Shown here piece by piece: positions 1 through 15,808 of a stretch of DNA of 64,000 nt. Origin of the DNA: Chitinophagales bacterium (lineage in GTDB: Bacteria > Bacteroidota > Bacteroidia > Chitinophagales > Chitinophagaceae); NCBI GenBank assembly GCA_021323755.1, contig JAJPKJ010000064.1:1-64000 (forward strand), given 5' to 3'. A program made the position numbers and the translations under genes. Within the stretch, counting starts at the first letter, position 1, and the number at the start of each line of letters is the position of its first letter. The notes beneath the pieces were generated by a model that was given only the letters and a program-made list of their open reading frames with translations, was not told the origin of the DNA and made no database searches.

Positions 1-724
1 CTGGCGGAGATAACTCTGCATTAAAAGGTCTGAAAGGAGCCGGACCAACCCACATATCCCAATTTAAATTTTGCGGAATGGGTTCCTGCATTAAATAATC
101 GGGAATGGCGGCTGTGCCAACATTCACAAGTACTTCTCTTACATCACCTATATATCCATTGCGCACCAACTCGCAAGCGTGCCTGAAATTAACCCAGGAG
201 CGTTGCATGCTGCCTGTTTGCAAGATCACTTTGTTCTTATTTACTGCATTGACCATCGCTCTTCCTTCTTCAATGGAATGGGCTAATGGCTTTTCACAGT
301 AAACATGTTTTCCTGCATTTGCGGATGCAATGCTTGCTACCGCATGCCAATGATCGGGCGTTACAACAACTATTGCATCAATATCCTTTCTCAACAACAT
401 TTCTCTGAAATCGCCGTAACCGGCAATTTCATTATTGGTTCTTTTGTATTTTTTATAACTGTTGGCGACAACCGTCTTAAAAAGAGTGAGTTTTTGTGAA
501 TCTACTTCTGCGGCGGCGATTATTCTTGTCTTTTCTGCAAATCCATCAGCTAATCCCCGCGCCTGTTTGCCGGTGCCGATAAAACCTAAGGTTATTTGAT
601 CGCTGGGTGCAGTATAGCCGCTCCCACCCATTACAAAGCGGGGAATGATGCTGAGTGCAACTGATGCTTGTAAACCGTTTTTAAGAAATTGCCGACGGTT
701 GGATTGAAGGATCTTTTTTCTCAT
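1..724 (-). CDS. Gfo/Idh/MocA-family oxidoreductase, Tat-exported, 3' end beyond the window
   Basis: The start codon is at 724 and the reading frame runs off the left edge, so only about 241 N-terminal residues are seen. The N-terminus has a twin-arginine signal (SNRRQFLKNG) followed by a hydrophobic stretch, predicting Tat export. A Rossmann nucleotide-binding segment follows (ITLGFIGTGKQARG), then VVVTPDHWHAVAS and the EKPLAHS signature that carries the family's conserved Lys. Family members are NAD(P)-dependent sugar or polyol dehydrogenases; Tat-exported forms are common in sugar-degrading Bacteroidota. The substrate cannot be told. It is divergent from the small lipoprotein gene at 932. 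Confidence 0.88.
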   Translation of the reverse strand, partial: MRKKILQSNRRQFLKNGLQASVALSIIPRFVMGGSGYTAPSDQITLGFIGTGKQARGLADGFAEKTRIIAAAEVDSQKLTLFKTVVANSYKKYKRTNNEIAGYGDFREMLLRKDIDAIVVVTPDHWHAVASIASANAGKHVYCEKPLAHSIEEGRAMVNAVNKNKVILQTGSMQRSWVNFRHACELVRNGYIGDVREVLVNVGTAAIPDYLMQEPIPQNLNWDMWVGPAPFRPFNAELSPP

Positions 725-931: not shown

Positions 932-1048
932 ATGAAAAAAGCGCTTGTAATAATCCTTTTTGTCAGTGTTGTTGTCGCGATTTTCTCGGGATGTGCAACA
1001 TCACAGCGTACCGGCTGCAAGGCCACAAGACAGATGGGTGGATATTAA
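932..1048 (+). CDS. Small lipoprotein, 38 residues
   Basis: The short ORF reads MKKALVIILFVSVVVAIFSG, then the lipobox Cys at residue 21, then a mature peptide of only 18 residues ending CKATRQMGGY. A Lys-rich start, a hydrophobic core and a lipobox (FSGC) make export and lipidation likely. The mature part has one further Cys (TGCKAT). Minimal lipoproteins of this type are frequent in Bacteroidota but their role is not known to me. The gene lies only 20 bp from the left boundary of the tRNA-Val island. Confidence 0.6.
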   Translation: MKKALVIILFVSVVVAIFSGCATSQRTGCKATRQMGGY

Positions 1049-1068: not shown

Positions 1069-1090
1069 TGGACTGTACTGAACATGAACC
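1069..1090 (+). repeat. Left attachment-like repeat (copy of the tRNA-Val 3' end)
   Basis: Twelve bases (1069-1080) are identical to 10959-10970, then 5 differ and 5 match again (GAACC), giving 17 of 22. The orientation is direct. This fits attL left behind when an element inserts in a tRNA 3' end and restores the gene at the other end. Confidence 0.65.
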
Positions 1091-1118
1091 TCAACTGAAA
1101 ATCAGTACTTTGAAATGT

Positions 1119-1139
1119 TTACTCATGATATACTCACTG
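1119..1139 (+). repeat. Subterminal island repeat, left copy
   Basis: TTACTCATGATATACTCACT plus one G matches 10836-10856 at 20 of 21 positions in the same orientation. It lies about 40-50 bp inside the left attachment-like repeat. It could be an arm-type recombinase site. Confidence 0.55.
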
Positions 1140-1435
1140 TGTGCTTGGTTCGTGTCCTGATTGACCTGATCAGTCCCTGGCAGGATAAATCTAAATCTCA
1201 ATTTTTCAAGAATCTTGCACCATTGGCTCAACATTGATTTGTGAATTTCGCGGGATGTTTATCTTGATACTTTCCCGTAAAGGCATTACACATTATCCTT
1301 GATACCTTGTTACCACTACTAACTCTTTTCCATTAATCATTAACATTATTCTTTAATCCTGTTCATGACAATGTTATTAGTCTAAGTTAAATTAGTTGTA
1401 TAAACATCTATTATTTAGCATTTGTTATAGGCATA

Positions 1436-1834
1436 TTATATTGGCCCCAAATCAAGCATTCCAAACTCGGGATCAACACCACTTCTAATATTATCACTCA
1501 CAGTCATATTTTGCTTATGTTTATTCCAGTCTACGATTTGAAAAGTTGGGTTATTTCCACTTCCATCAGGTCTTTGGCTTTCTATCCATAAATGATAAGT
1601 CTGCGGGCCAAACTGATAAGAAGCATGAATCTTAGTCTGCCAAATATTGCCGTCTGTCCCTAAATATGTTAACCATTCTGTATGCCCACACTGGTTACCT
1701 TTACTGTCATAAATTGTAAAATTTGGGTCGGATGTAAATAAAGCTACGTGTGATGGTTGGTCAAGAGATGCAGATAAATTCTCCCCCTTATCATCGATAT
1801 AATTAAATCGGGAAACCTGAACTGATGTGCTCAT
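1436..1834 (-). CDS. Hypothetical protein, 132 residues
   Basis: I do not recognise a family. The product is soluble-looking, with no signal peptide or membrane segment and many aromatic and polar residues (HTEWLTYLGTDGNIWQTK, SYQFGPQTYHLWIESQ), which suggests a beta-rich fold. The start at 1834 is the only plausible ATG. It is the first gene inside the island and stands alone, divergent from the membrane-protein gene at 2007. Confidence 0.5.
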   Translation of the reverse strand: MSTSVQVSRFNYIDDKGENLSASLDQPSHVALFTSDPNFTIYDSKGNQCGHTEWLTYLGTDGNIWQTKIHASYQFGPQTYHLWIESQRPDGSGNNPTFQIVDWNKHKQNMTVSDNIRSGVDPEFGMLDLGPI

Positions 1835-2006
1835 AATAAATTGTTTTGTTTAAGGTAATAAAGAAACTCGCTATTTTTTGTTAAAAGAAAAGATTTTTAA
1901 ATAGAATTCTCTTTATTGAAATATTTTTTGTTGATAGGATAAGGGTTTGTTATTACGATCAATCAGATTGCTATTTTCATAATTTTGGCTAACCAAACTA
2001 ACTTTT

Positions 2007-2726
2007 ATGGAGTCAATACTTCAATATATTTCTATTGCTTCGGGTATTATTATTACTATGAGCGTTGGAAGATTAAATCTTTACTTTAGGGAATATGATG
2101 CTCCAATTTTCAACTTGATTGTATTTTCTGATATTGTAACCTATTCCTTGGATTTGGTCTATAATCTTTGCCCACTTTTTTTTGCTACGGGTATAGGCTA
2201 TTTTTTCCTATTAAAACATTCGAATTGGCTACCTACTTCTGAATCTCATACCTATATTGTGATTATTTGGATCATCTTCGTCGTTTCTGTATTTGGAGCA
2301 ATTTATTCATCAAGATCATTTAAAGAGAGAGCTAAATATATAGTTCCCACACTTTGTACATATACTGCGATTGCATGCCTATTCTTCTTAAACTATTGCT
2401 ATAATGCCCCGAATCAAAATTTATCTATTTTCTTTGATAAAAAAGTTGACATTTTCTTAATTTTTAGCTTCGCCTTTTTTTACGTTAGAATAGATAGCAA
2501 ATACGCGGTGTACATGTTAAATAATTCCGGCATCAAAGGGGTATCTATAATAACATTTAAAGACAAAAATCAGCACCCGCATCAATTGAAAACAAATCAT
2601 GATCGATATATAATTGGCATCTTAACAAATTTCGTTCTGATTTATCATCAGAAAATAAAAAAAACAGAAATCATTCCAATGGACGTGATTGAGAGTATCA
2701 AAAGACCCAATTTGAACAAGAAATAA
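2007..2726 (+). CDS. Hypothetical multi-pass membrane protein, 239 residues
   Basis: Five or so hydrophobic segments are visible, at about residues 4-22, 36-70 (one or two), 82-101, 111-132 and 147-162. A soluble, Lys-rich C-terminal tail of about 75 residues follows (TFKDKNQHPHQLKTNHDRY). No family is recognised. It is an island gene, and its 3' end overlaps the convergent gene at 2648-2998 by 79 bp. A two-part membrane-plus-cytoplasmic-tail architecture is seen; any function is unknown. Confidence 0.55.
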   Translation: MESILQYISIASGIIITMSVGRLNLYFREYDAPIFNLIVFSDIVTYSLDLVYNLCPLFFATGIGYFFLLKHSNWLPTSESHTYIVIIWIIFVVSVFGAIYSSRSFKERAKYIVPTLCTYTAIACLFFLNYCYNAPNQNLSIFFDKKVDIFLIFSFAFFYVRIDSKYAVYMLNNSGIKGVSIITFKDKNQHPHQLKTNHDRYIIGILTNFVLIYHQKIKKTEIIPMDVIESIKRPNLNKK

Positions 2727-2998
2727 CCCGACATTAAATTATGCATTTCTGCGTCAGTCAACATTCTTTGTAATTCCCTATTCATTTCTGATTCATTCAT
2801 TGGTTCATCAAATTGCATTATTCTGTTGTAATGTTGGATGAAAGTTAGCAGCTTCATTTGCATTAACGATTTTAATGCTTTTTCTTCTCTTGAAGAATAT
2901 AGGATAAAATCCACTGTATCATTTGCGTTCTTTTCCAGTAATGCAGCAAATGACTTCTCTTTTTGAGAATGATTTTTGATTTCTATTTCCTTTTCCAT
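2648..2998 (-). CDS. Hypothetical protein with a hydrophobic C-terminal tail, 116 residues
   Basis: The N-terminal 85 residues are charged and helical (EKEIEIKNHSQKEKSFAALL, then NESEMNRELQRMLTDAE). The last 25 residues are strongly hydrophobic (FLFKLGLLILSITSIGMIS), which would make a tail-anchored protein. That tail is encoded antisense to the end of the 2007-2726 gene, so either the overlap is real or the tail is fortuitous read-through. No family is recognised. Confidence 0.45.
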   Translation of the reverse strand: MEKEIEIKNHSQKEKSFAALLEKNANDTVDFILYSSREEKALKSLMQMKLLTFIQHYNRIMQFDEPMNESEMNRELQRMLTDAEMHNLMSGYFLFKLGLLILSITSIGMISVFFIF

Positions 2999-3213
2999 AA
3001 ATCTTGATTTTAGGAAGCGAATATAAAGAGAGTTGGTTTTTTTGAAATGGTAATTGATAAAATTTCTAATTGTAGAATTTAATGAGATAGGGGTTTATAA
3101 TTAAATCAATATGATTGTTGTTATTGATTTTGGAGATTATTATTAACTTCCTGACAATTTTAACCTAAAAGACCCACCGAAATTTATCAAGGCTAATAAA
3201 ACAAATAATACTC

Positions 3214-3855
3214 ATGAAATTGAACAATCTTAAAAAGATCAATTATGAATCTTATGGAACCTTATTGATTGCCTATGGATCAATTGTTATTTTTATTTCT
3301 TGGGTTTTTCATGATGTAATTAATCCGGCATATAAGGATAGAAAGTTAGATCAACAATTTAATTTTTCTAATCTAAGAAATGCGGAATTAGGGGGTTTTG
3401 TTTTGGCACATTATTTAACATACCTGAATACTGATAGTTTAAAAATTAAGGAATATAACAGAGAAAAATTATTAGCTGAATTTGGAGCCAATGCAGAAAG
3501 AATAGATGGATTCAGATTGCCTATATATAATATTGGAATTGATGATGATAATAAGGATTTGTTGGAGTTTTTAAATGGTCTGTTTGCTGCCAATCAGAAA
3601 GCGGCAAAGGATTCAAGTATCAGAGGATTAGATAGTATAAATGCAAAATTGAATTGTCTTCATGATTTGACTTTTGAAAAATTAGATAAGAATCAATATT
3701 CAAATATTCAATTAAATTCAAAGAATGAGTACGAATCAGACCTAAAATATATTTTCTGTTATTTATGCGGCTCAGCTTGCTTTGCATGGGGTTTTATTCT
3801 TCGTAAACTGAGAGCTATAATTCGATGTTGGAAAATTCTTTTTGATATGAAATGA
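3214..3855 (+). CDS. Hypothetical protein with N- and C-terminal membrane segments, 213 residues
   Basis: One hydrophobic segment lies at about residues 15-33 (GTLLIAYGSIVIFISWVF) and another near 180-198 (YIFCYLCGSACFAWGFIL). They flank a polar domain of about 145 residues, so a hairpin-anchored protein with a soluble loop is likely. No known domain is recognised. It is convergent with the broken frame at 3858-4193, with almost no gap. Confidence 0.55.
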   Translation: MKLNNLKKINYESYGTLLIAYGSIVIFISWVFHDVINPAYKDRKLDQQFNFSNLRNAELGGFVLAHYLTYLNTDSLKIKEYNREKLLAEFGANAERIDGFRLPIYNIGIDDDNKDLLEFLNGLFAANQKAAKDSSIRGLDSINAKLNCLHDLTFEKLDKNQYSNIQLNSKNEYESDLKYIFCYLCGSACFAWGFILRKLRAIIRCWKILFDMK

Positions 3856-3857
3856 TT

Positions 3858-4193
3858 TTATTTATTCTTTTTGAACTTTAAGGTATATTCTTCACCGTGT
3901 ATTTCGCGGATTAATCCTCCTAATATTTCTTCACCGTACTTGATATAATAATTGATCTCATCATCATCAAGGCTAATGATTGAAACTTTCTCGTAATCAT
4001 CTTCTGATGGTTTCCTGCCTAAATAATGGGTTAGTATGAATTCAACTGTGGCAAATTCTGTCCAAAGCCATTCAGTTTTTTTAACTGAAAAATCAGGCAA
4101 TTCGTTCTTCTTTGGCGTACAGAGAAATTATTTGACAAATTCATCAAATTTCTCACCCGTATTATAATCTTCAAGATTTATTATTTGTTCCAT
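3858..4193 (-). pseudogene. Hypothetical protein gene interrupted by an in-frame TAA
   Basis: An ATG at 4193, 8 bp after the stop of the upstream gene, opens a frame reading MEQIINLEDYNTGEKFDEFV K and then TAA at 4130-4128. The same frame stays open to 3858, and the remaining 80-residue ORF has no ATG, only a TTG at 4100. The downstream part looks coding (acidic segments such as SEDDYEKVSIISLDDDEINY). This is best read as one protein of about 111 residues with a nonsense change. Two separate small proteins, or a sequencing error, remain possible. No family is recognised. Confidence 0.5.
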
Positions 4194-4201
4194 CGTTTTT
4201 A

Positions 4202-4762
4202 TTAATTTAATAATGATACTTCTAATGTTTTGATAGCCTTGATTTCCTTCATTCTATTATCTACGAGAGCAAACAACATTCCTTCGAGTTCATTATTAAA
4301 GCATTCAAAAGAAGAATTAATTTCATTTACTGATTCTCGGAGGGAGTTAACATAAGATTCTCTAATTGATTTTGCGTTATTTATGCTCTCATCTGTCAAT
4401 GAACCATTCTCATATTTAAGTTCAATATCAAATTGCACTTCATCATAGTTGTTATCAGAAGCATCAACTTTTGGGATAGATGCTGTTTGGATTTTAAAAA
4501 TATTAAGGTCTTCAACATTATATGGTATTGCATAATAAGCCCTTGCTCCATTGTGAACAATTTTTGCTCTTATTTTTTCAAAGTCAATAATGATTAGCGG
4601 CAAGTGATTTTCAGAAATTAATTTTGCTATAAAAATTAATTTATTTTCCGTAGTCAGGATGTTTCGTATTTCATTTTCTTGCTCAATTATTCTTTCTCTT
4701 TTTGCGTTTAAATAATCTTCAATAGAAATACTGTTAAATAGGAATTTGTCGTGATCTTTCAT
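4202..4762 (-). CDS. Hypothetical protein, 186 residues
   Basis: A cytoplasmic-looking protein with charged helices at the N-terminus (residues 15-40, YLNAKRERIIEQENEI) and C-terminus (SINNAKSIRESYVNSLRESV), and a central beta-like part. There is no signal or membrane segment and no recognised domain. It ends 8 bp before the broken frame at 4193, so the two probably form one transcription unit. Confidence 0.5.
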   Translation of the reverse strand: MKDHDKFLFNSISIEDYLNAKRERIIEQENEIRNILTTENKLIFIAKLISENHLPLIIIDFEKIRAKIVHNGARAYYAIPYNVEDLNIFKIQTASIPKVDASDNNYDEVQFDIELKYENGSLTDESINNAKSIRESYVNSLRESVNEINSSFECFNNELEGMLFALVDNRMKEIKAIKTLEVSLLN

Positions 4763-5080
4763 TTTTCGTCTTTTTGAATAGTTTAATTGTTATGTGCTAT
4801 CTAATATAATTATCTGGGAATTTGGCCAGGATGGATATTTTTCAATTTTTTTAGCAACTTTATTTTTGAAGGGGGTTTGCTTTGTAAAGTTGTGCAGTTT
4901 AACGGAGGGAATGATTTACGAAAGGCCACGCTTTGTCAATTTCCGCGGTTTGTGACATGGTGAATTATAAAGAAAGTTTTAGTTCGCAAATTTCTCATTA
5001 ATGATAATTTTCAGATTAGGTTCGATATAAATTCTCATTTTCGAGAAAAATTGGTTGTTCTTGTACTATTGTTATTCCTA

Positions 5081-5207
5081 TTTTGTCGTCTGTTTTTGTT
5101 TTTTGTTTTTGTTTTTGTTTTTTGTTTTCTGTTTGTGTTTTTGTTTTTTGTTTTTTGTTTTTGTCGTCTGTCGTCTGTTTTCTGTTTGTGTTTTTGTTTC
5201 TTTTGTG
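5081..5207. repeat. Low-complexity T/G tract with repeated GTCGTCTG units
   Basis: On the plus strand the tract is runs of 4-6 Ts separated by single Gs. It is punctuated by GTCGTCTG at 5085, 5163 and 5170, and by two copies of a GTTTTCTGTTTGTGTTTTTG block (near 5125 and 5177). This looks like slippage plus a partial tandem duplication. The minus strand reads as A/C-rich. Confidence 0.75.
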
Positions 5208-5280
5208 GTACAAAAAATTTAAAAATTTCTATTACAAAAAAAATTTCTTCAAAATTATTCTTATAGCTTTGTAAAAGAAA

Positions 5281-5305
5281 AACCGCCTGATGTACACAGA
5301 CGGTT
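5281..5305. terminator. Hairpin, terminator-like on the minus strand
   Basis: AACCGCCTG (5281-5289) pairs with CAGACGGTT (5297-5305) with one mismatch and a 7-base loop. On the minus strand it is followed by TTTTTCTTTT. No minus-strand gene ends immediately upstream, so it could be a leftover of a lost gene. Confidence 0.35.
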
Positions 5306-5472
5306 ATTATTTGGTGGAAGGGTCTCTGTTGAAATCAATTAACAAGCATGTTATTGAATAAGGCAGGGACTTCTTCTTTTAACAAAGGTAATTCACCTAA
5401 AATTATCAGGCAAATAGATTGTTTTTCTGGTTCTGGCTCACTTTTTATTGATTTGGTAAAGAAACTGTTACT

Positions 5473-6069
5473 ATGGATTACAAGGTCAAAAAAATACTTG
5501 AATTTCTTCAGGAAAAGGGAGTTGGAATACAGGCTAACATTGCCCCTATCTTGACAGACTTATTCCCGGTCAATAATCCGGATGATTTAATTCAGAGAAG
5601 AAATAGTTGGAATCAGATGTTTAAATTATTGGATGATATTAGAGAAAAAAATTTTGTTTCTTTTCATTTTCAACCAAATACCCTTTCTACTTCATTAATG
5701 TATAATACGATTTCAAATTTGCCTTTAAATATCTCAATAAAAACTGATGGAATCACTGCAATTGAAAACGAACACAAGAGGCTGCGAGAAATTCCTATTC
5801 AAGAATCAATTAATGAATTAAATGAAATAAATAAAGATGTTTTGCGGTCTACATTAAACTTAAATAATACTGTCATTCCACGTTTCAATAGCGTGCAAAG
5901 GTCTTTAACAGTAATTACGATAACAATAGCCTTCATTTCTTTCGTTGCAATTGCATTTTCTGCGTATTATTCTTCTAAAGCTCCTACGTCTACCGACATA
6001 CAAAAATTGGATAGTACTCTGCAAAAGAATTCAAGGCTGTTGGATAGCCTGCTTAAAAGACTTCATTGA
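5473..6069 (+). CDS. Hypothetical tail-anchored protein, 198 residues
   Basis: The N-terminal domain (1-135) is soluble and partly helical. One hydrophobic segment lies near 146-166 (LTVITITIAFISFVAIAFSA), followed by about 30 residues with a short coiled-coil-like repeat (IQKLDSTLQKNSRLLDSLLK). No family is recognised. It is convergent with the RES-like gene, only 11 bp apart at the stops. Co-function with that gene is possible but unproven. Confidence 0.5.
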   Translation: MDYKVKKILEFLQEKGVGIQANIAPILTDLFPVNNPDDLIQRRNSWNQMFKLLDDIREKNFVSFHFQPNTLSTSLMYNTISNLPLNISIKTDGITAIENEHKRLREIPIQESINELNEINKDVLRSTLNLNNTVIPRFNSVQRSLTVITITIAFISFVAIAFSAYYSSKAPTSTDIQKLDSTLQKNSRLLDSLLKRLH

Positions 6070-6080
6070 TCGTAATCAAT

Positions 6081-7013
6081 TCAATGAGGCTCAATTATTT
6101 CTCCATCTAAATTTCTTGCAACTTGCCTTCCGTCTTCAATTGTAATATAATAATGTTCGTCATCATAAAAAGTCCATTGAGGTACTCTTCCTTTCCATTC
6201 AATTAATCCATCATCAGAAATTGAATTAGCCCAGTCTAAAACATCAACATTATATTTAGCACCAGCAACGCTTTTGATTTCAATATATTCGACCTCTTTA
6301 AATATTAAACTTCCATGATCAACCACAGATTTCTTTATTGCAAAATTATCTGCATTTGCATTCATCTTGATTGTAGGGTAAAATAATCCAGCGAATTGCG
6401 CATAATTTTTATCATTTTCTTGAATGTTTTCGGAATGGTGTTTTTCTGCAATTGCAATCGTTAACTTTTTCAATTCTTCTTTATCATTTGGAATCTGTTG
6501 GCTAAATGCTTTAGCTAAAAAATTTTGAACCAATTTATTTTCTTCATTTAGCATTTCTTGTGGTTCTACTTCTTCATACCATTTGTGATCTCGATTTGCG
6601 TTTAGGTTTTTAAAGTTCTCTTCAGTATATCCAATACTATTAAATAATAATGTTTCAGTTGTTACCCAATAAGAAAGAGCTATTCTATCTCCTGGCTGTA
6701 GTCCTAATTCGTAAAAAGGAACCTGTCTATTCCCGGAGCAATAAAAACATTGTTCTCCTTGTCTATTTGCCCGATTCATTTTTGCTTTTTCAATAGGAGG
6801 ATATGATAACTCACTCAGTTTTTTAGGCTTTTCTTTATAAGGTACTCCTCTATGTAAGATTGTTCCCCTTTCAAAATGTGATGCTGATCCAATGAATCCG
6901 GTAAACAGAAGCCTTAATTTTTCTTTTATAGATTCGATAGTTGAAGCTCTCAAATCTGTCTTTTGAATTTCATCAATCCTTTTCATTAGCTCTTCTAATG
7001 GCGGTCTATTCAT
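6081..7013 (-). CDS. RES-domain-like protein, 310 residues
   Basis: Residues about 49-116 resemble a RES domain: an early Arg (ILHRG, R55), then an NRANRQGEQCFYCSG segment with the aromatic residues and Gly typical of the family, a downstream Glu (E102 in VPFYELG) and GDRIALSYW. RES domains occur in NAD+-consuming toxins paired with Xre/MbcA-type antitoxins, and also in longer stand-alone proteins. This one is longer than a typical toxin, and no antitoxin of the usual type lies beside it. The rest of the protein is unassigned. An exact TACATTTG promoter element lies just upstream (7033-7040). Confidence 0.5.
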   Translation of the reverse strand: MNRPPLEELMKRIDEIQKTDLRASTIESIKEKLRLLFTGFIGSASHFERGTILHRGVPYKEKPKKLSELSYPPIEKAKMNRANRQGEQCFYCSGNRQVPFYELGLQPGDRIALSYWVTTETLLFNSIGYTEENFKNLNANRDHKWYEEVEPQEMLNEENKLVQNFLAKAFSQQIPNDKEELKKLTIAIAEKHHSENIQENDKNYAQFAGLFYPTIKMNANADNFAIKKSVVDHGSLIFKEVEYIEIKSVAGAKYNVDVLDWANSISDDGLIEWKGRVPQWTFYDDEHYYITIEDGRQVARNLDGEIIEPH

Positions 7014-7315
7014 AAATCACTTTATTCTTTTGCAAATGTAAAAAGTATTGGTGTTTATGGATTTAAATTGCATGATTAGTCTTTACTATTACTTTCATGA
7101 TCACTACTTTATAATACTTGACGATTTTTTGATTCCTTGATATAAGATTTCCTAAAAGGCAATCAAGAATAAAAATTCAGATTACCTCTCAGGAACCTAA
7201 TTGATACTTGACGCTTCCCGTCATCCCATCAATAAGGAGAGACTTTTGATCTCCCAACTAAGATAATTTCAGTAACCTTAGTCTGTCTCGTCCTGAAAAT
7301 ACCTTACATGTGGTA
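7014..7315. other. Intergenic stretch between the RES-like gene and the IS
   Basis: No gene is seen. It contains the RES promoter element and, at 7288-7298, an 11-base copy (TCGTCCTGAAA) of the first bases of the IS left end. Confidence 0.5.
7033..7040 (-). promoter_or_regulatory. -7 promoter element (TACATTTG) of the RES-like gene
   Basis: An exact TAnnTTTG match on the minus strand, ending 20 bases before the start codon at 7013. Confidence 0.5.
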
Positions 7316-7340
7316 TCGTCCTGAAAGTAGTTGACAGTTT
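7316..7340 (+). repeat. IS left terminal inverted repeat
   Basis: Pairs with 8817-8841 in inverted orientation, 20 of 25 positions identical. Confidence 0.75.
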
Positions 7341-7478
7341 CTAGTGAGTTATTTAATTTCTGTTTTTCTATTTACAAAACAAAGGTTTTTTGCTGTGATT
7401 TTTCTCAATATAAAAACCTTAATCCTGATTTAGTTGTCAACACTGGAGGTTGTCTGATTCTTCTCATACTATTAATTA

Positions 7479-8393
7479 TTATATTTTTTGACCAAATTCT
7501 TCATCACCAAAATGAAAGGATTTGGTCAAAAAATTCTTTATTCGCGTATTCTTCCATTTCTTTTCTAATTCTCCTTGCTTCAAATGGGCTTGTTCTGGTG
7601 TGAGATAATTGCAACTCATGTGTGGGCGTTTTGTATTGTAAGCTTGAATACTCTGGGTAACTGCAATCATTGCTTCATCATGAGACCTAAATGTTCTACT
7701 CAAATTAAATTCAGTTTTTAAAATCCCATTCATTCGTTCAGCGATTTGATTTTCGTAACCGGCACCATCCTGTGTCATACTTATTGCAATGCCAGACTCT
7801 TTCAATTCTATGATATATTCATAACTGCAGTATTGTGTTCCGCGATCTGAATGGTGGATTAGTTCAGTTTGAAACTTGGACCTACCATTTAATGCCATGT
7901 GGAGTGCCTTTAGACAACCCTCCGCCGAAAGATAGGGGTAAAGACAATACCCGACAATTTTTTTGGAATACGCATCAGTTATTAATGATAAATAATTAAA
8001 ATCAAAACCTACACTGATGTATGTAATATCAGCAACCCAAAGTTGCTCAGATTGTGCTATAACTAAATCCTGTATAAGGTTCGGATATTTTTTCAGCCAG
8101 TGTCTGGAATTAGTTGTTTTTGGAGCGCCCCTTTTTTTTCTAATAAGCATTCCATTTTCCCTAAGCACATTGAATAACTTGTCCCTGCCAATTTTTATAC
8201 CATGCGTTTTGAATGGTTCTATCAAGCACATATACAATTTTCTGGTTCCGAGTCCGGGCAGCTCACGGCGCACCAGAGCTACTAGTTCTATTACAATATT
8301 TTGAACCTGGATTTGTTGATTTATATATTCTTCTCTTTTATAAAACGCCTGTCGTGATTTACCAAACAGTTTACAGAGATGACCGACACTCAT
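7479..8393 (-). CDS. IS3-family transposase, orfB (DDE integrase core)
   Basis: The protein has an HTH_21-like N-terminus (LGTRKLYMCL) followed by an rve-type catalytic core. The triad is D122 (WVADITY), D183 (HHSDRGTQY) and E219 (NQIAERMNG), with exactly 35 residues between the last two. The listed ATG at 8393 is internal: the frame is open upstream into the end of orfA, as expected for a product made by -1 frameshifting (KGWYQTVKVIKQKKLAK reads into MSVGHLC). It acts in cut/copy-out transposition of this IS. Confidence 0.92.
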   Translation of the reverse strand: MSVGHLCKLFGKSRQAFYKREEYINQQIQVQNIVIELVALVRRELPGLGTRKLYMCLIEPFKTHGIKIGRDKLFNVLRENGMLIRKKRGAPKTTNSRHWLKKYPNLIQDLVIAQSEQLWVADITYISVGFDFNYLSLITDAYSKKIVGYCLYPYLSAEGCLKALHMALNGRSKFQTELIHHSDRGTQYCSYEYIIELKESGIAISMTQDGAGYENQIAERMNGILKTEFNLSRTFRSHDEAMIAVTQSIQAYNTKRPHMSCNYLTPEQAHLKQGELEKKWKNTRIKNFLTKSFHFGDEEFGQKI

Positions 8394-8422
8394 CTTTGCA
8401 AGCTTTTTTTGCTTTATTACTT

Positions 8423-8800
8423 TTACTGTTTGGTACCACCCTTTTTTCTAATTGAAATTGAATATTCTTTCTCCGCAAAATCAAGTAAATGATTTAAACT
8501 GAATATTACTAGATTAGAATATTCAAGCGCTTTTTCGAATTCTTTGATTCGAATGTCTGCTGCCTTTAGGTTTTGTTTTTGTTCGTCAGTCATAGGAGGC
8601 AAAACTATTGCACCATTTTGCAATTGTTTCTGAAACTGCTTGATCCAAGATTGAACAACGTAGATACTTGGTAAATCATATTCTTCAACTACTTTTTGAA
8701 TATCCTTACCCTTGAAATAAACTTCAAAAACAATCTTCTCTTTAAATGCTTGGGTAAACTCGAACCGGTTAAAATGAGCTTCAAAATTTGAATTTTCCAT
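8423..8800 (-). CDS. IS3-family orfA, helix-turn-helix DNA-binding protein
   Basis: 125 residues with a helix-turn-helix region (FKEKIVFEVYFKGKDIQKVV, then SIYVVQSWIKQF) and a C-terminal leucine-zipper-like helix (ADIRIKEFEKALEYSNLVIF). It ends across the AAAAAAG heptamer at 8447-8441. OrfA normally binds the inverted repeats and forms the N-terminal half of the OrfAB transposase. Confidence 0.85.
   Translation of the reverse strand: MENSNFEAHFNRFEFTQAFKEKIVFEVYFKGKDIQKVVEEYDLPSIYVVQSWIKQFQKQLQNGAIVLPPMTDEQKQNLKAADIRIKEFEKALEYSNLVIFSLNHLLDFAEKEYSISIRKKGGTKQ
8441..8447 (-). promoter_or_regulatory. Programmed -1 frameshift heptamer of the IS
   Basis: The orfA frame reads A-AAA-AAG followed by GGT. 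Slipping back one base joins it to the open orfB frame (K-G-W-Y-Q). This is the usual A6G slippery site of the IS3 family. Confidence 0.7.
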
Positions 8801-8816
8801 ACAATTTTTGTTTGGA

Positions 8817-8841
8817 AAACTGTCAACTTATATCCGGACAA
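8817..8841 (-). repeat. IS right terminal inverted repeat
   Basis: Inverted match to 7316-7340; it reads TTGTCCGGATATAAGTTGAC then AGTTT on the minus strand. Confidence 0.75.
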
Positions 8842-8954
8842 GACCTGTTATAATCCATGTTCCTTACATGACCACAAAGCGGATTTACCAGACAATCTAA
8901 ATCTGGTCGGTGTTGATTGATGATTAAATACTGTTCTTGTGTAAGCTTTGCCAT
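8823..8954 (-). pseudogene. Fragment of a hypothetical gene cut by the IS
   Basis: From an ATG at 8954 the minus strand reads MAKLTQEQYLIINQHRPDLD followed by about 20 residues, then enters the IS end and stops at 8823. The sequence looks coding, and the IS insertion at about 8841 seems to have truncated it. The continuation on the far side (below 7316) is not convincing. No family is recognised. Its start codon lies inside the hairpin at 8950-8970. Confidence 0.35.
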
Positions 8955-8977
8955 ATACAGGATATATGGCTTTTTTT
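8950..8977 (+). terminator. Rho-independent terminator-like hairpin
   Basis: GCCATATA (8950-8957) and TATATGGC (8963-8970) form a perfect 8-bp stem with a 5-base loop, followed by seven Ts on the plus strand. No plus-strand gene precedes it. On the minus strand the stem holds the start codon of the fragment at 8954. Confidence 0.45.
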
Positions 8978-9001
8978 AGAGTTGATGTTATGTGTTATGA
9001 T

Positions 9002-9715
9002 TTATTTTTCTGATATTCCTACTCTTAACCTTTCATTGATCATTCTTCTAATTTCCTTAAAAATAGGAGCTAATTTTTCGTGCGCCGCAACTCCTTTGAG
9101 ATAATTTTCGTGAATCTTTGAATCTCTCTCCTTTATCAAATGTGCGATGGTAATGTTTCTTCCTATTTGAATCGAAGGAATTGCATTAATTTCATCATTA
9201 TAAGATAAAGCTTCAGATAAAGAATTCTTACACATGCTTTCAAAATCGAGTACTTTATCATGAAGGTCAATAAAAGCTTTAATCAAACTTTCATCTTCAT
9301 TATAATAGATATTTACAACTGCATGTAACTTTATGAATTCATTATAAGATCGGTTGATGATTTGGTTGCCTTCATAAGAATATTGCTCAAGAATGTTTAA
9401 AGATGGGAAATTTTCCAAGATGTTTACATACCACGTATTAAAAGCTGAATGATAATCCAATAAGGATTGCCTCATTTCTTTTTCAAAATTCTTTTTCCTA
9501 TCTGTTAAAAGTTGAATTTCAGACTTGACATTTTCAATTTTCTTTGTGATTTCTGCAATATCTTCTTTTGTGGCAAGATTTTTCCCTTTTTCCTCCGAGT
9601 AAGATTTAAAAAAGGCCAAATAGAATCCCAATATTATCAGGGCTGACTCTAAAATTATTTGTGCAATATTCATTGCTATTGAACTATTTTGAAGGTTTAT
9701 TTTTCCTTGATTCAA
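9002..9715 (-). CDS. Hypothetical membrane-anchored coiled-coil protein, 237 residues
   Basis: A single hydrophobic segment at about 16-36 (IAQIILESALIILGFYLAFF) is followed by a charged heptad-like region at 45-85 (GKNLATKEDIAEITKKIENV) and a helical soluble domain to the end. The ATKEDI-type motif after one membrane helix is familiar from many uncharacterised bacterial proteins, but I cannot assign a function. Its start overlaps the DUF4145 gene by 32 bp in another frame, so the two are translationally linked. Confidence 0.55.
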   Translation of the reverse strand: MNQGKINLQNSSIAMNIAQIILESALIILGFYLAFFKSYSEEKGKNLATKEDIAEITKKIENVKSEIQLLTDRKKNFEKEMRQSLLDYHSAFNTWYVNILENFPSLNILEQYSYEGNQIINRSYNEFIKLHAVVNIYYNEDESLIKAFIDLHDKVLDFESMCKNSLSEALSYNDEINAIPSIQIGRNITIAHLIKERDSKIHENYLKGVAAHEKLAPIFKEIRRMINERLRVGISEK

Positions 9716-10379
9716 CTGAATTTATCCAATGTTTTGTCCTCTCCTGTTTATCCAAATCGGAAATAATTAATCCTATCAATTCTTTTAAATCGCTCACATC
9801 ATATTCTTCAAAGAGTTTTTGATAATGCGATTGATCATTGCCTAACCAAGTTGCTCTTAAGAGAATTGCTTTCAATTCATCTTTGAAATAACTATTGACA
9901 ACTTCATTGAGCGTAAAAGAAATAATCTTATCTCTATCTTCAGGCTTTTCTTTGATCGCCCAATCCTTAACCAGGAATTCAATTGCTTTTCTGAATCCCA
10001 TTCCTGCAATTTCATCCAAACCTTTAAACTCTGCGATAAGACTTTGTTCGTAGATTTTTATAAATCTTGAATTTAATTCAACAATAACTTTAGGCCATTT
10101 GTCTAATTCAGGTGTTCCATCTAAGAAGCCAACAAACTCCGCTTGGTCGCCATTCACGTGTCTATGTGCTACATATTTTGCAAAAATGTACTTGAAACAT
10201 TCAGGATTTGGGCATTGCCAGATAGTTATTAAATCCAGCAAAGCATCACTTTCTTTGTTTATTTCAAAAAAAGAACTTTGATAGTTTGCAGCTATATGAT
10301 TGTGACAGTAGGGACAAAAAGAAATATCCCTTACATAATAAGCATTACTTTGATGTCTTACTTGCGAAACTCTTTCCAT
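9684..10379 (-). CDS. DUF4145 (HEPN-like) protein with a zinc ribbon
   Basis: Two Cys pairs (CPYC and, about 30 residues later, CPNPEC) form a likely zinc ribbon at the N-terminus. A helical domain follows, with GMGFRKAIEFLVKDW and the RATWLGNDQSHY motif. DUF4145 is related to the HEPN/KNTase-C fold, and such domains are frequent in defence-associated and RNA-cleaving proteins. A longer start at 10403 is possible. I prefer the ATG at 10379 because a TATATTTG promoter element lies at 10386-10393, between the two ATGs. It is paired with the membrane protein downstream. Confidence 0.65.
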   Translation of the reverse strand: MERVSQVRHQSNAYYVRDISFCPYCHNHIAANYQSSFFEINKESDALLDLITIWQCPNPECFKYIFAKYVAHRHVNGDQAEFVGFLDGTPELDKWPKVIVELNSRFIKIYEQSLIAEFKGLDEIAGMGFRKAIEFLVKDWAIKEKPEDRDKIISFTLNEVVNSYFKDELKAILLRATWLGNDQSHYQKLFEEYDVSDLKELIGLIISDLDKQERTKHWINSVESRKNKPSK

Positions 10380-10385
10380 AACCCC

Positions 10386-10393
10386 CAAATATA
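10386..10393 (-). promoter_or_regulatory. -7 promoter element (TATATTTG) of the DUF4145 gene
   Basis: An exact TAnnTTTG match whose last base is 7 bases from the ATG at 10379, implying a leaderless or very short leader. Confidence 0.4.
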
Positions 10394-10403
10394 ACAAACT
10401 CAT

Positions 10404-10958
10404 TACAGGCCAAACGCGGCCCTGATTATTTCCCCTTATCTTATATTGCCTGGAAAGAGATCGGCCAAATTTGGGCCAAAAGAATTAAATACAGGGCCAT
10501 TATCGCTAAACGGTTGTATCCTTCCTGGGAGTGCTAACGGTTTTATATATATGTATATACAGATTTGATCCCATTTGGATTATTCCGGGAATTTTTCTTG
10601 ATCTTTTCTTTTAAAGGAGTGAATCATTTTCTCATTGGAAAAGTTTTGAACCGGGTAAGGGCATTTGGGAAAGGGGAATATCCGTAGTTTGCTTCGTAAC
10701 CTTTTTGCGGCCTTTGAGTAGAAAATTTCCTTTGAAACCCAGGCCAGACAAAGGGTGTTGATTTGAGAGAGTTTATAGTGGATTGACTATCAATGTTTAT
10801 AGTCTCAAATCGTGAGTTACGAATATCATCGTAGGTTACTCATGATTTACTCACTGAATCTATTGCATCAAGATAAAGATGTTCGAACATGATGTGATTG
10901 AAAATGAATGAAGTAAATATTTCTATTGTACCTATTGGATGGATTTTTAAAGGCGGAG
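10404..10958. other. Right island end, no gene seen
   Basis: This stretch lies between the DUF4145 gene and tRNA-Val and contains the 21-base subterminal repeat and inverted GTGAGT/ACTCAC elements (10812-10855). A 7-bp inverted repeat lies at 10418-10424 and 10492-10498. An integrase gene would be expected here, but no convincing ORF or remnant is seen. Confidence 0.5.
10836..10856 (+). repeat. Subterminal island repeat, right copy
   Basis: Matches 1119-1139 at 20 of 21 bases in direct orientation. Its ACTCAC half is inverted relative to GTGAGT at 10812-10817. Confidence 0.55.
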
Positions 10959-10980
10959 TGGACTGTACTGGGCTCGAACC
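10959..10980 (+). repeat. Right attachment-like repeat, inside the tRNA-Val 3' end
   Basis: Twelve identical bases plus a matching GAACC block shared with 1069-1090. The T-arm and acceptor end of the tRNA fall in this segment, a usual integration target. Confidence 0.65.
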
Positions 10981-11033
10981 AGTGACCTCTGCTCTGTCAA
11001 AGCAGCGCTCTGAACCAACTGAGCTAACAGTCC
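10959..11033 (-). tRNA. tRNA-Val (anticodon GAC)
   Basis: A 75-nt cloverleaf on the minus strand. The acceptor GGACTGT pairs with ACAGTCC, the D-arm is GCTCAGTTGGTTCAGAGC, and the anticodon stem CTGCT/AGCAG encloses the loop TTGACAG, giving anticodon GAC. The T-arm includes GGTTCGAGCC. The discriminator base is A; CCA is not encoded. It reads valine GUC/GUU codons. Its 3' end borders the island. Confidence 0.93.
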
Positions 11034-11109
11034 GGATTAAATGTTAAATGTAGGGTTTCTTATCCAACGATTAAAGTTTCAGAAATCGTACATCTTATAT
11101 CTCATCTCT

Positions 11110-12342
11110 CTAAATTTTTCTTCTCTCAAGTTCTCGCTTTATCAATCCCAATTCTCGTCCTGTTTGTCCCGACATCGAGCTGTTTTCCTGTGCCCGGCGC
11201 ATTAAATATGGAATAACATCTTTTATGGGTCCAAAAGGTAAATACTTGCTCACACTGCATCCTGCTTTCGCTAAATTAAATGTAATGTTGTCGCTCATTC
11301 CATATAACTGTGAAAAATGAATATGCGGATGATCTAATGGCAGGTTTTTTTCTTGCAATAACTGGGTTGCATACAAATTACTGAACTCATTATGCGATGC
11401 AACGATCAACGCAATGCGATCGATATGATCAATACAAAAATTTACTCCTTCGTTGTAGTCTTTGTCAGTAGTTTCTTTATTCGGTTGTATCGGTGATACA
11501 TAACCGAGATCTGCAGCGCGCTTTCTTTCTTTTTCCATATAAGCGCCGCGAACCAATTTAGCACCGAGAACAAAATGGCGAAGCTCAGCTGCTTCTAAGG
11601 AATCTTTTAAAAATTTCAATCTGTCGTGCCGATACAATTGCACGGTGTTATACAATATCGCTTTTTCTTTATTGAATTGTTCCATCATTAAAATGGTGAT
11701 CACATCAACAGGATCCTGGATCCACGTTTCTTCCGCATCAACAAGAACACCAACATTTTTTTCAGCAGCAACTTTGCAAATGCGCAACATTCGTTCTTGC
11801 ACGCGCTGCCACTCTTCTTTTTCCTGGGCCGTCAATGATTCAAGTGCCTTCGCATATCTTTTCATTAAACTTCCGGCATTCAGCTCAACGGAATGATCTA
11901 ATTTTTCCAGCAATCCAAAACGCGCAAACCCGGTTACTTTAATACTCATAAAGGGAATGTTGGATTGGGTGGCTGCATAATTTATTACGCGAATGAATTC
12001 ATCACAGGCGTGATCAAATCCACTTTCACCATCTTCCCCACCTTCTACACCATAATCTAAAATAACCTGCACATTATATTCGCCTAATTTTTTAGCAACG
12101 GCGGCGGTCTCTTCCAGCGTTTCACCACCAACAAATTGTGAAAAAATAGTACTGCGAATAATGCCTTTAACCGGGAATTTGTTACGAATAGCCCACGGCG
12201 TTAGTCTGGTGCCCAATTTTACCAGCCACGTGCGACCCATTGAAGAAAAAAGAAAATTGGCCTTTTTTAATTCCTTGTCGTTTTTATATTCAAAAGCGTT
12301 CTCCGTATTATCAAAAGAAATATTTGCCATATTGTTAGTCAT
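11110..12342 (-). CDS. Proline dehydrogenase
   Basis: 410 residues. It catalyses FAD-dependent oxidation of proline to pyrroline-5-carboxylate, the first step of proline catabolism. Seen in the sequence are the PRODH TIM-barrel hallmarks KLVRGAYMEKERKRA, DAEETWIQDPVD and ASHNEFSNLYA, plus GQTGRELGLIKRELERRK at the C-terminus. It is a stand-alone enzyme rather than a PutA fusion, so the P5C dehydrogenase must be elsewhere. The first ATG (12342) is used; a second ATG 4 codons in is possible. A TACATTTG promoter element lies 20 bases upstream. Confidence 0.93.
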   Translation of the reverse strand: MTNNMANISFDNTENAFEYKNDKELKKANFLFSSMGRTWLVKLGTRLTPWAIRNKFPVKGIIRSTIFSQFVGGETLEETAAVAKKLGEYNVQVILDYGVEGGEDGESGFDHACDEFIRVINYAATQSNIPFMSIKVTGFARFGLLEKLDHSVELNAGSLMKRYAKALESLTAQEKEEWQRVQERMLRICKVAAEKNVGVLVDAEETWIQDPVDVITILMMEQFNKEKAILYNTVQLYRHDRLKFLKDSLEAAELRHFVLGAKLVRGAYMEKERKRAADLGYVSPIQPNKETTDKDYNEGVNFCIDHIDRIALIVASHNEFSNLYATQLLQEKNLPLDHPHIHFSQLYGMSDNITFNLAKAGCSVSKYLPFGPIKDVIPYLMRRAQENSSMSGQTGRELGLIKRELERRKI

Positions 12343-12361
12343 TCAAACATTCGATAGTGGG

Positions 12362-12369
12362 CAAATGTA
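12362..12369 (-). promoter_or_regulatory. -7 promoter element (TACATTTG) of proline dehydrogenase
   Basis: An exact TAnnTTTG match on the minus strand, 20 bases upstream of the start codon. Confidence 0.5.
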
Positions 12370-12572
12370 AGAAGGAAATTTTTTATGAACCAGAGTTTGG
12401 TAAATCCTTCCAAATGCGACATGTTCGATAGTGATGCATTTGCCCGCGATCATTTACCACGGACGATTCACTTTGGAAATGTCCAAATGTGCGAAGCAAT
12501 GAAATTCAATAGTTGCGATGCCAGGCGACTCACAATAAAAATATTTACTTACATTCGGTTACAATCATTTTT

Positions 12573-14243
12573 ATGAGAAAGTCTTTGGTCTTTTCAACTA
12601 CAATCTTATTTATTTTCTGCTCCTGTAAAACAAAACAACATTATGACACGATCATCCGTAACGGGATAATTTATGATGGAAGTGGAAATAAATCTTTCAA
12701 AGGCGATGTTGGTATAAATGGAGATACCATTGCAGCCATCGGCGATCTTTCAAATGCAAACGCCAGCAATGATATTGATGCAAAAGGAATGGCAGTGAGC
12801 CCGGGTTTTATTGATATGCAAAGTCAATCAATGGAATCATTAATACAAGACGGACGTTCAATGGGCGCAATTAAACAAGGAGTGACGCTGGAAGTTTTTG
12901 GTGAAGGTGATTCTATGGGTCCGTTAACCGATACACTGAAAAAAATTAACGAAAGACATCAGGGTGATATAAAATATAAAATTGAATGGACATCATTAAA
13001 AGATTATTTGGAATACTTGCAGAAAAAAGGCGTCTCCACCAATGTGGCATCTTTTGTAGGTGCAGCGACCATCCGCGAAAACGTTTTATTATTTGCTAAC
13101 CGCGCCCCGGATTCTGCGGAATTAGATAAGATGAAATCTTTAACGAAGCAGGCAATGGAAAATGGCGCGTTGGGAATTGGATCTGCACTAATTTATGCAC
13201 CCGGTGCTTATGCAAAAACAGATGAATTGATTGAATTGTGCAAAGTCGCTTCAGCATACAATGGCGCATATATTTCGCACGTTCGAAGTGAAGGAAATCA
13301 ATTATTGCAAGGAGCAGATGAATTGATAAAAATTTCAAAAGAAGCGAACATTCCGGCAATATTTTATCATCTGAAGGCTGCCGGGAAAAATAATTGGTAC
13401 AAGATGGATCTGTTGATCGCAAAAATTGATAGCGCAAAAAAAGCAGGGTTGGATATTTCTGCTTGCATGTACCCTTATACTGCAGGAGCAACTGGTTTTG
13501 ACGCTGCCATGCCACCGGCGGTTCAGGAAGGGGGATTGGATAAATGGGTGGAAAGATTAAAAGATCCATCGATAAGGAAAAAAGTGTTGAAAGAAATGGT
13601 GACACCCACCAACGACTGGGAGAATTTGTATCTGGGTTCCGGCGCCGATAATGTCATTTGTATCGGCTTTAAACAGGATTCCCTGAAATACCTAACTGGA
13701 AAGCGTTTGAGCGAGATCGCGAAAATGAGAAATAAATCTCCCGAAGAAACCATTATTGATCTGATAATACAGGATCATTCGCGCATTGAAGTAGTTTATT
13801 TTTTAATGAGCGAAGAAAATGTAAAAAAAGAGATCAAACTGCCATATACATCCTTGGGCTCGGATGAAGCAAGTATGGCGCCGGAAGGAATTTTTTTAAA
13901 GAATAGTGCACACCCGCGCGCCTATGGAACTTTTGCAAAAGTTCTTGGTCAGTATGTACGTGATGAAAAATTGATTTCGCTGGAACAAGCTATTCATAAA
14001 TTAAGCGGATTGGCAGCGCAGCAATTGCATATAAAAAAAAGGGGAATGTTGAAGGTTGGAAATTATGCGGATGTGATTGTGTTTGATCCGGCAACTGTTA
14101 ACGCAAACTCAACTTACGATAAACCACACCAGCTGGCAACAGGAATGAATAACGTTTTTGTAAATGGAGTCCAGGTCTTAAAAGATGGAATCCATAAGGG
14201 TGCCAAGCCAGGACAAGCCGTATTTGGCGAAGGAAAGAAATAA
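12573..14243 (+). CDS. D-aminoacylase-like amidohydrolase lipoprotein (HxH replaced by QxQ)
   Basis: 556 residues from the ATG at 12573; the upstream in-frame ATG at 12513 would bury the lipoprotein signal MRKSLVFSTTILFIFCSC. The amidohydrolase layout is clear: an N-terminal beta sandwich (YDTIIRNGIIYDGSG), PGFIDM, then YISHVRSEG, IFYHLKAAG and SLGSDEASM. These last supply the His, His and Asp seen in N-acyl-D-amino-acid deacylases. The usual HxH after PGFID is instead Q83-S-Q85, so the metal site must differ or be reduced. The protein is probably exported and lipid-anchored. It is followed by a dipeptide epimerase, suggesting use of D-amino acids or cell-wall peptides. Hydrolysis of N-acyl-D-amino acids is inferred from the family. 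Confidence 0.8.
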   Translation: MRKSLVFSTTILFIFCSCKTKQHYDTIIRNGIIYDGSGNKSFKGDVGINGDTIAAIGDLSNANASNDIDAKGMAVSPGFIDMQSQSMESLIQDGRSMGAIKQGVTLEVFGEGDSMGPLTDTLKKINERHQGDIKYKIEWTSLKDYLEYLQKKGVSTNVASFVGAATIRENVLLFANRAPDSAELDKMKSLTKQAMENGALGIGSALIYAPGAYAKTDELIELCKVASAYNGAYISHVRSEGNQLLQGADELIKISKEANIPAIFYHLKAAGKNNWYKMDLLIAKIDSAKKAGLDISACMYPYTAGATGFDAAMPPAVQEGGLDKWVERLKDPSIRKKVLKEMVTPTNDWENLYLGSGADNVICIGFKQDSLKYLTGKRLSEIAKMRNKSPEETIIDLIIQDHSRIEVVYFLMSEENVKKEIKLPYTSLGSDEASMAPEGIFLKNSAHPRAYGTFAKVLGQYVRDEKLISLEQAIHKLSGLAAQQLHIKKRGMLKVGNYADVIVFDPATVNANSTYDKPHQLATGMNNVFVNGVQVLKDGIHKGAKPGQAVFGEGKK

Positions 14244-14287
14244 TGTGAGCAGAAATGTTTTGTCTTCTGACTTTCAAAAAAATCCAG

Positions 14288-15385: not shown

Positions 15386-15392
15386 ATAAAAA

Positions 15393-15422
15393 AGGGAACT
15401 ACAGGGTTCCCTCTTATTTTTT
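15393..15422. terminator. Bidirectional terminator between convergent genes
   Basis: AGGGAAC and GTTCCCT form a 7-bp stem with a 6-base loop. A T-rich tail follows on the plus strand (CTTATTTTTT) and on the minus strand (TTTTTTATTT), serving the epimerase and the WXXGXW lipoprotein. Confidence 0.75.
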
Positions 15423-15434
15423 AGGTTTTTAATT

Positions 15435-15716: not shown

Positions 15717-15758
15717 GATTGATATTTTTTTTGTTTACGATTATTATTTCTATCAAAA

Positions 15759-15808
15759 TAAAACCAACATCGTGCCATCGCTATAACACAAACATAATGT
15801 TGGTTTTA
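15759..15808. repeat. Perfect 12-bp inverted repeat around the sigma-54-like site
   Basis: TAAAACCAACAT (15759-15770) and ATGTTGGTTTTA (15797-15808) are exact inverses, 26 bp apart. One arm overlaps the -12 region of the candidate promoter. It could be a regulator site or an mRNA or DNA hairpin. Confidence 0.6.
15763..15777 (-). promoter_or_regulatory. Candidate sigma-54 promoter of the WXXGXW lipoprotein
   Basis: The minus strand reads TGGCACGATGTTGGT. The -24 half (TGGCACG) is perfect. In the -12 half the conserved G is at the right spacing, but the full TTGC is not matched. The expected start site is about 35 bases before the ATG at 15716. Confidence 0.5.

Follow-up and report, generated by a model that had tools for sequence, protein, structure and literature searches.

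A putative attachment-flanked island at tRNA-Val(GAC) of a Chitinophagaceae genome, probably left without its integrase

We analyzed a stretch of 64,000 nucleotides (the window) from the genome of a Chitinophagales bacterium (Chitinophagaceae; 4,082,095-base assembly in 75 contigs, 99.81% complete). A 9.9-kb region of the window (1069-10958) lies between a tRNA-Val gene and a displaced copy of the end of that gene. We have good confidence that this region is an island flanked by attachment (att) sites, similar to a cis-mobilizable element (CIME), which has lost its integrase and is probably immobile. What we infer here is an integration event, the function of the arm sites, the loss of an integrase rather than its primary absence, and immobility. 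The initial annotation had also read the region as an element integrated in a tRNA gene, and this remains the best reading: it is backed by a pair of 21-bp repeats at the ends, by a step in GC-content, by the element L368 of a congener, by the presence of an integrase or its remnant at tRNA-Val in three family members, and by genome-wide recombinase searches. The island is ordinary in kind and unusually clean in the anatomy of its ends, which present the following features:

10958..11033, minus strand: intact tRNA-Val(GAC) gene, the putative integration target, with its 3' end directed into the island (Infernal match 10959-11033, 66.3 bits)
10959..10970: core repeat at the tRNA 3' end, attL-like, exact 12-bp match to 1069-1080
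1069..1090: displaced copy of the tRNA 3' end, attR-like, with 12 exact bases (1069-1080) and 18/22 identical bases over 1069-1090
1119..1139, plus strand: arm-like 21-bp repeat TTACTCATGATATACTCACTG, 38 bp inside the left core (putative arm function)
10836..10856, plus strand: arm-like 21-bp repeat TTACTCATGATTTACTCACTG, tandem TTACTCA with a period of 11, 102 bp inside the right core (putative arm function)

The core TGGACTGTACTG is found at 1069-1080 and 10959-10970 in the same orientation, and no third copy exists on either strand of the assembly. The exact direct repeat of the tRNA end that had been reported earlier is thus confirmed and unique genome-wide, and so is the presence of a GAACC match at the same offset (1086-1090 and 10976-10980). 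The position and the minus strand of the tRNA, the only feature that reached the gathering score in an Rfam scan, likewise confirm that its 3' end points into the accessory block. The locus therefore presents the arrangement used to define tRNA islands: an intact tRNA gene with a displaced 3' fragment on its 3' side in direct orientation.

We compared the left copy to the 3'-terminal 22-mer of the tRNA and observed 18 identical bases, including all 12 terminal ones. This score was never reached in 3000 first-order Markov shuffles of the island (best score 17, in 4 shuffles), and the exact 12-mer was present in one of them. We further scored the regions downstream of 87 tRNA-Val(gac) genes (window included; variable lengths, 1.2 Mb in all). 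On the reverse strand, which served as control, one region scored 17, another scored 16 and all others scored 15 or less. On the forward strand, five regions scored at least 18/22: the window, L042 and L051 (20 each, with 21-bp exact repeats), and L200 and L202 (20 and 22), whose repeats are tRNA-like copies within about 130 bp. In the source genome, 49 tRNA matches were found and the downstream sequence could be tested for 42 tRNAs. For 40 of them, the tRNA 3' suffix was matched exactly over at most 8 bases, relative to 12 in the window and at least 22 at tRNA-Asn (reverse-strand maximum: 10). We did not consider as islands the repeats found close to tRNAs in L200, L202, L242, L047 and L041.

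The two 21-bp repeats present a single mismatch (20/21) and the same orientation. In the right copy, the TTACTCA unit is present twice at a distance of 11 bp; the second unit has one change in the left copy. When searching the 64 kb for same-strand 21-mer pairs with at most one mismatch, three groups were recovered: this pair and two T/G-rich groups of low complexity. The arm-like pair is then the only pair of that kind that is not of low complexity. Genome-wide, no further site was found with up to two mismatches, and a single extra site was found when allowing three (3 mismatches, no tRNA in its 3-kb locus). Arm-type sites are a general feature of integrases, and the 21-bp repeats would represent such sites.

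The element L368 of a congener (G021) shares the same plan. It is located at tRNA-Asn(GTT), beside a GTPase gene that we take to be HflX, and carries 44-bp repeats of the tRNA end 13.8 kb apart as well as a 456-aa integrase-like protein at its distal end. Its tandem arms (period 12) share one orientation and are found 49 bp and 127 bp inward of the cores. As in the window, the cores are formed by the tRNA end, tandem arms are found at both ends in one orientation, and one arm is close to its core while the other is deeper by about 60-80 bp. The two elements differ in which end has the near arm, which suggests that the lost integrase of the island would have been on the tRNA side. In contrast to the island, L368 possesses an integrase, targets tRNA-Asn and presents a different arm sequence (period 12 rather than 11), a core of 44 bp rather than 12 exact bp, and a cargo that looks restriction-modification-like by eye. 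Its integrase is independently recognized by PF13102 (G021:C10); its score against the hidden Markov model (HMM) used below is high by construction, since it is one of the 13 sequences of that model.

We then examined the tRNA-Val(GAC) loci of the family. The gene to the right of the tRNA (11110..12342, minus strand) is proline dehydrogenase-like, presumably a proline dehydrogenase, and is a conserved neighbor of tRNA-Val(GAC) in the genus. Among 29 loci of relatives fetched with this gene (best identity: 84%), 20 have tRNA-Val(gac) in reach. The pairing is conserved, whereas the sequence located 3' of the tRNA varies. An integrase or a remnant was detected at three of 80 other loci scanned (L043, L051 and L042), indicating that integrases target tRNA-Val(GAC) in this family. 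L043 (G009) encodes an intact 510-aa tyrosine integrase (1707-3239; PF00589, PF17293 and PF13102) that starts about 260 bp after the tRNA. In L051 (G034), a remnant (2.6e-6) directly follows the tRNA and 21-bp repeats of the tRNA end are present. In L042 (G024), which also has 21-bp tRNA-end repeats, the remnant (4.6e-6, also matched by PF13102) lies just past the distal repeat.

Several side observations were made at these loci. The best tRNA-end match of L043 within 18.4 kb is 9 bp long. The L042 repeats (1607-17328) enclose 15.7 kb between tRNA-Val(GAC) and the 21-bp end copy, with ORFs (open reading frames) of up to 1711 aa and small ORFs; SMI1-like immunity genes suspected there by eye were not confirmed by Pfam. 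In L051, a 2.3-kb AbiEi/AbiEii pair (about 2541-4957) lies between the tRNA-Val(GAC) repeats, and a terminator-like hairpin was seen by eye after both copies of the tRNA end.

The initial annotation had stated that no integrase is visible in the block. This still holds after a search for remnants with an HMM built from 13 congener integrases (including those of L368 and L043), and the island encodes no recognized tyrosine integrase. The best matches of this HMM in the island (E = 0.57 and 0.066, coiled-coil-like ORF 9005-9721) were discarded as noise. It had also been proposed that an integrase targeting tRNA-Val might be found elsewhere in the genome. PF00589 matched only two proteins of the whole genome, both Xer-type recombinases: the first is above the XerD cut-off (348 bits) and the second matches XerC best (320.4 bits, just under the cut-off of 335.15). 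No PF00239 resolvase was found in the whole genome. For comparison, PF13102 matches were present in all 20 family members searched (the source genome was outside this search), with 1 to 14 matches each, the weakest of which (about 300 aa) may be Xer proteins.

The composition of the island also changes at the repeats. Its GC-content is 0.320, relative to 0.405 on the left and 0.382 on the right, and the lowest value among 87 equally long windows to the right of the island is 0.368. Gene content breaks at the same place: the 310-aa protein of the island (6081-7013) was found in 6 of 195 other genomes, and none of the congeners searched has it. These genes are probably foreign. A DNA search of 294 family genomes returned, among the matches listed, only the tRNA, the IS3 element, a T/G-rich stretch and a coiled-coil-like stretch; with two candidate places scored per genome and an incomplete list of matches, this search is weak as proof of absence.

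A scenario can be proposed from these results. The element would have entered the 3' end of tRNA-Val(GAC) through recombination by a tyrosine integrase, with the last 12 bp or so of the tRNA as attB and the identical core of a circular form as attP. The tRNA end would have been restored by the element, and the copy displaced at 1069 would be the original end. The 21-bp repeats inside both cores would have served as arm-type sites of the integrase, whose gene would later have been lost, most likely from the tRNA-proximal end. What appears to survive are the core and arm sites, the phrog_1305 protein, a RES-like protein, orphan membrane-like proteins and the insertion of IS3. The content of the island is as follows:

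1436..1834, minus strand: 132-aa ORF, no confident family
2007..2726, plus strand: 239-aa hydrophobic orphan protein, membrane-like by eye
2648-2998, minus strand: 116-aa ORF overlapping the 239-aa ORF 2007..2726
3214..3855, plus strand: 213-aa orphan with hydrophobic ends (by eye)
3858..4100, minus strand: 80-aa ORF, probably the 3' part of a gene with an in-frame stop (by eye)
4202..4762, minus strand: 186-aa orphan, weak matches to PADLOC PDC-S54 (6.2e-6) and a phage structural PHROG (7.4e-4)
5473..6069, plus strand: 198-aa orphan with a C-terminal hydrophobic stretch (by eye)
6081..7013, minus strand: 310-aa protein, probably a divergent RES-domain protein judging from its homologues
7315..8848, minus strand: IS3-family insertion sequence (IS), ORFs 7479-8393 and 8423-8800, ends approximate and set by eye
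9002..9715, minus strand: 237-aa membrane-anchored coiled-coil-like protein, weak matches only, including an Rz-like spanin (0.0024)
9684..10403, minus strand: phrog_1305 protein (5.1e-32), DUF4145-like (3.4e-4, below the Pfam cut-off)
10404..10835, no strand: tRNA-proximal stretch without an ORF of at least 60 aa, candidate place of the lost integrase by analogy with L043 and L051

The tRNA-proximal gene encodes the phrog_1305 protein, a family of the DNA-binding class, and relatives of this protein were found in 45 phage records and 14 plasmid records. The 310-aa protein has no Pfam match itself, and its RES-like nature is suggested through its homologues: of five compared to RES (PF08808), three are above the cut-off and two below. 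The L288 homologue (38% identity) is among those below (0.022), and the remoter L289, L291 and L292 are above. A search of solved structures with the 310-aa protein gave no credible match. Between 3858 and 4194 (minus strand), a frame starting with ATG stops after 21 codons and the same frame resumes as the 80-aa ORF, as seen by eye; this is a probable pseudogene. The IS3 element (NF033516 match of 2.5e-65 for ORF 7479-8393) interrupts the island; two relatives of it, short and partial, occur in the rest of the genome. A sequence of 56-140 bp overlapping the IS3 end (window 7284-7423) carries two CGTCCTGAAA-like motifs spaced by 28 bp. It is found again, with 80-84% identity, at G000:C58:12754-12893 and G000:C45:34553-34608, where the search matched no part of a transposase.

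Several observations weigh against an integrated element. Neither an integrase nor a remnant of one was recognized in the island, and in an assembly of 75 contigs an integrase could lie in a contig gap. The exact core is only 12 bases long and four of the five bases between the core and GAACC differ. In the distal copy the discriminator is followed by a G, whereas a C is found at this position in 87 of 88 tRNA-Val(gac) genes (the sole exception sits at a sequence end). The margin within the genome is narrower by 22-mer score: forward-strand scores of 17/22 are obtained for two further tRNAs, by chance or through neighboring tRNAs, and the highest reverse-strand score is 16. Tandem arms are found in 71 of 1253 background windows, 5 of 93 island windows and 9 of 85 other tRNA-Val loci, and the left arm of the window and the tRNA-side arm of L368 are too imperfect for the tandem-arm test. 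Given these frequencies, we rejected a tandem arm repeat on its own as a mark of integration. No comparable repeat shared by both ends was found in L042, L051 or the tRNA-Asn island of the source genome described below, where no tandem arm was recognized at the distal end, such that the reading as arms depends on a single comparator and on the pair being unique.

The contig (C62) begins at base 1 of the window, which limits the left flank to 1,068 bp with two genes:

2..724, minus strand: 5' part of a Gfo/Idh-type oxidoreductase (as we presume), cut by the contig end, patchy orthologues
932..1048, plus strand: 38-codon lipoprotein-like ORF, no homologue found

It had been claimed that the left copy begins 20 bp after a core-like lipoprotein gene. 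The distance to the stop of this ORF is correct, and "core-like" found no support: the 328 loci fetched from other genomes contain no homologue of the lipoprotein with an E-value of 1e-3 or lower. These loci included the proline dehydrogenase loci of the 29 relatives, 20 longer downstream regions, 60 further family regions, 80 genome loci and orthologues of the left flank; 104 of the loci examined contain tRNA-Val(gac). None of the 328 joins the left flank to tRNA-Val, so the empty site that had been suggested as a check was not found among them; some loci end near the tRNA (324 bp in G013) and adjacency cannot be judged there. BLAST of the left flank returned just coding matches of Gfo/Idh type, and the remainder of the flank (725-1068) had zero matches. 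Gfo/Idh orthologues (at least 64% identity) were found in 3 of 31 relatives, each on a different contig from tRNA-Val. Paralogues (25-37%) are present in 14 of the 104 tRNA-Val loci, and a distant link of the left flank to this locus is therefore possible, again contrary to what we propose.

The initial annotation had left open whether the island is a satellite moved in trans or a relic. A relic appears likelier. A satellite would never have carried or needed its own integrase; selection would keep its sites and the integrase of another tRNA-Val element would act in trans. The cores and arms are indeed retained, with arms 20/21 alike, a congener possesses an integrase adjacent to tRNA-Val (L043), and the same genome harbors a second integrase-less island in tRNA-Asn. 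We nonetheless consider this unlikely: no helper integrase was recognized in the source genome, the IS3 insertion and the gene probably broken by a stop point to decay, a search of the genome for another copy of the island gave none (two candidate places scored there), and the retention of arms may merely reflect a recent loss. Regarding phage satellites, the island presents one strong PHROG match (phrog_1305) and two weak ones (7.4e-4 and 0.0024); the latter, to a virion structural protein and an Rz-like spanin, are read as coiled-coil similarity. No packaging gene was confidently recognized among the island ORFs (Pfam, PHROGs, PADLOC and NCBIfam), and no viral relatives of two island proteins were confirmed in viral_contigs.

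The repeats could also surround by chance an ordinary accessory region built by homologous exchange or illegitimate insertion. The 3' side of tRNA-Val is generally variable, no empty site was found among the loci examined and the left flank has no support as core. However, two independent pairs of repeats and the GC step all fall at the same places, making this explanation very improbable. Finally, copies or relics of tRNA-Val, or repeats of its end, are known close to the tRNA at other loci of the family (L202, L200, L242, L047 and L041), but they lie within about 200 bp of the tRNA, and a left copy that is 9.9 kb away, adjoins arm-like repeats and shows by eye no similarity past 22 bp has hardly any chance of being the relic of a second, tandem tRNA-Val gene.

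Our preferred reading, a decayed integrated element, can be compared to known systems. CIMEs are described as keeping both attachment sites after the loss of their integration genes (PMC5704250). The island resembles them: core and arm-like repeats are retained at both ends, and no integrase, relaxase or conjugation family was recognized (relaxase and conjugation families were searched among 10 ORFs with Pfam, PHROGs and PADLOC, and among 8 plus the two IS ORFs with NCBIfam). CIMEs are decayed integrative and conjugative elements or integrative and mobilizable elements (IMEs) in that account, whereas the island carries no conjugation or mobilization gene that would show its parentage, and no functional partner was seen in tandem with it. 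No intact relative was found when searching for the 310-aa protein in 195 genomes or among the listed matches of the 294-genome DNA search. The 12-bp core falls in the range given for IMEs with tyrosine recombinases, usually 8-60 bp (PMC5704250). Another ~10-kb element of Bacteroidota, the Riemerella 10K genomic island, is likewise located at a tRNA gene with flanking direct repeats and mostly hypothetical cargo; it differs by its target (tRNA-Arg rather than tRNA-Val), its 53-bp repeat (rather than a 12-bp exact core) and its NBU1-like tyrosine integrase domain, where our island has no recognized integrase (PMC6764341). The Islander method, as described, also delimits islands by an intact tRNA and a displaced 3' fragment, provided that their order and orientation are correct, and rejects candidates without an integrase ORF (PMC4383910). 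This island would then be filtered out, and att-flanked islands would in general escape mapping after losing their integrase. In a survey of E. coli, 68.0% of the cases at one defense hotspot had no detectable mobile element, and many cases at that hotspot held integrase or recombinase genes (PMC10121019). Hitcher elements and clusters of attC sites lacking integron integrases (CALINs) are the subject of PMC11389934. Among the literature matches listed, titles and abstract openings mention no work on this island.

The source genome harbors a second integrase-less island at tRNA-Asn(GTT) (L295, G000:C53:170000-189900), which is a positive control for the method. The 3' half of this tRNA is repeated exactly over 43 bp, 11,679 bp downstream (L295 4871-4913 and 16550-16592). 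The GC-content is mostly 0.31-0.35 inside, with a patch of 0.39-0.42, and 0.38-0.43 outside. The cargo comprises a HindIII-type endonuclease (3.3e-44), two DNA methylases, a GHKL-type ATPase and an AAA ATPase (AAA_21/AAA_15; best PADLOC match AriA). No integrase was recognized, including with the 13-integrase HMM, and an arm-like sequence, ATTTGCATAGAATTTGCA, is present at the tRNA-side end. This suggests that integrase loss recurs in this lineage, two such islands being present in one genome where no element-type integrase was recognized. These two islands, together with the AbiEi/AbiEii pair of a related genome, are also the basis for a more speculative and rather doubtful idea, namely that Bacteroidota harbor "ends-only" tRNA islands made of cargo (often for defense) and core and arm sites but no integrase, which would be mobile via passing tRNA-specific integrases. 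They would depend on foreign integrases as miniature inverted-repeat transposable elements depend on foreign transposases. The terminal-repeat signature (ends carrying TTACTCATGATWTACTCACTG) constitutes a usable search key, and the share of "unexplained" accessory DNA that enters via tRNA genes and then loses its integrase can be tested.

The tRNA-Asn loci of relatives further present a tandem repeat with a period of 11-13 less than 200 bp from the tRNA in 11 of 18 cases, nine of them at 44-46 bp (background: 71/1253 windows). The tandem units found after tRNA-Asn(GTT) in congeners (L357-L374) vary and include TTTGCCAGTAA, TTTGCAAACAA, TTTGATACATAT and others. These varying repeats may be related arm-type sites that form a family at a conserved hotspot.

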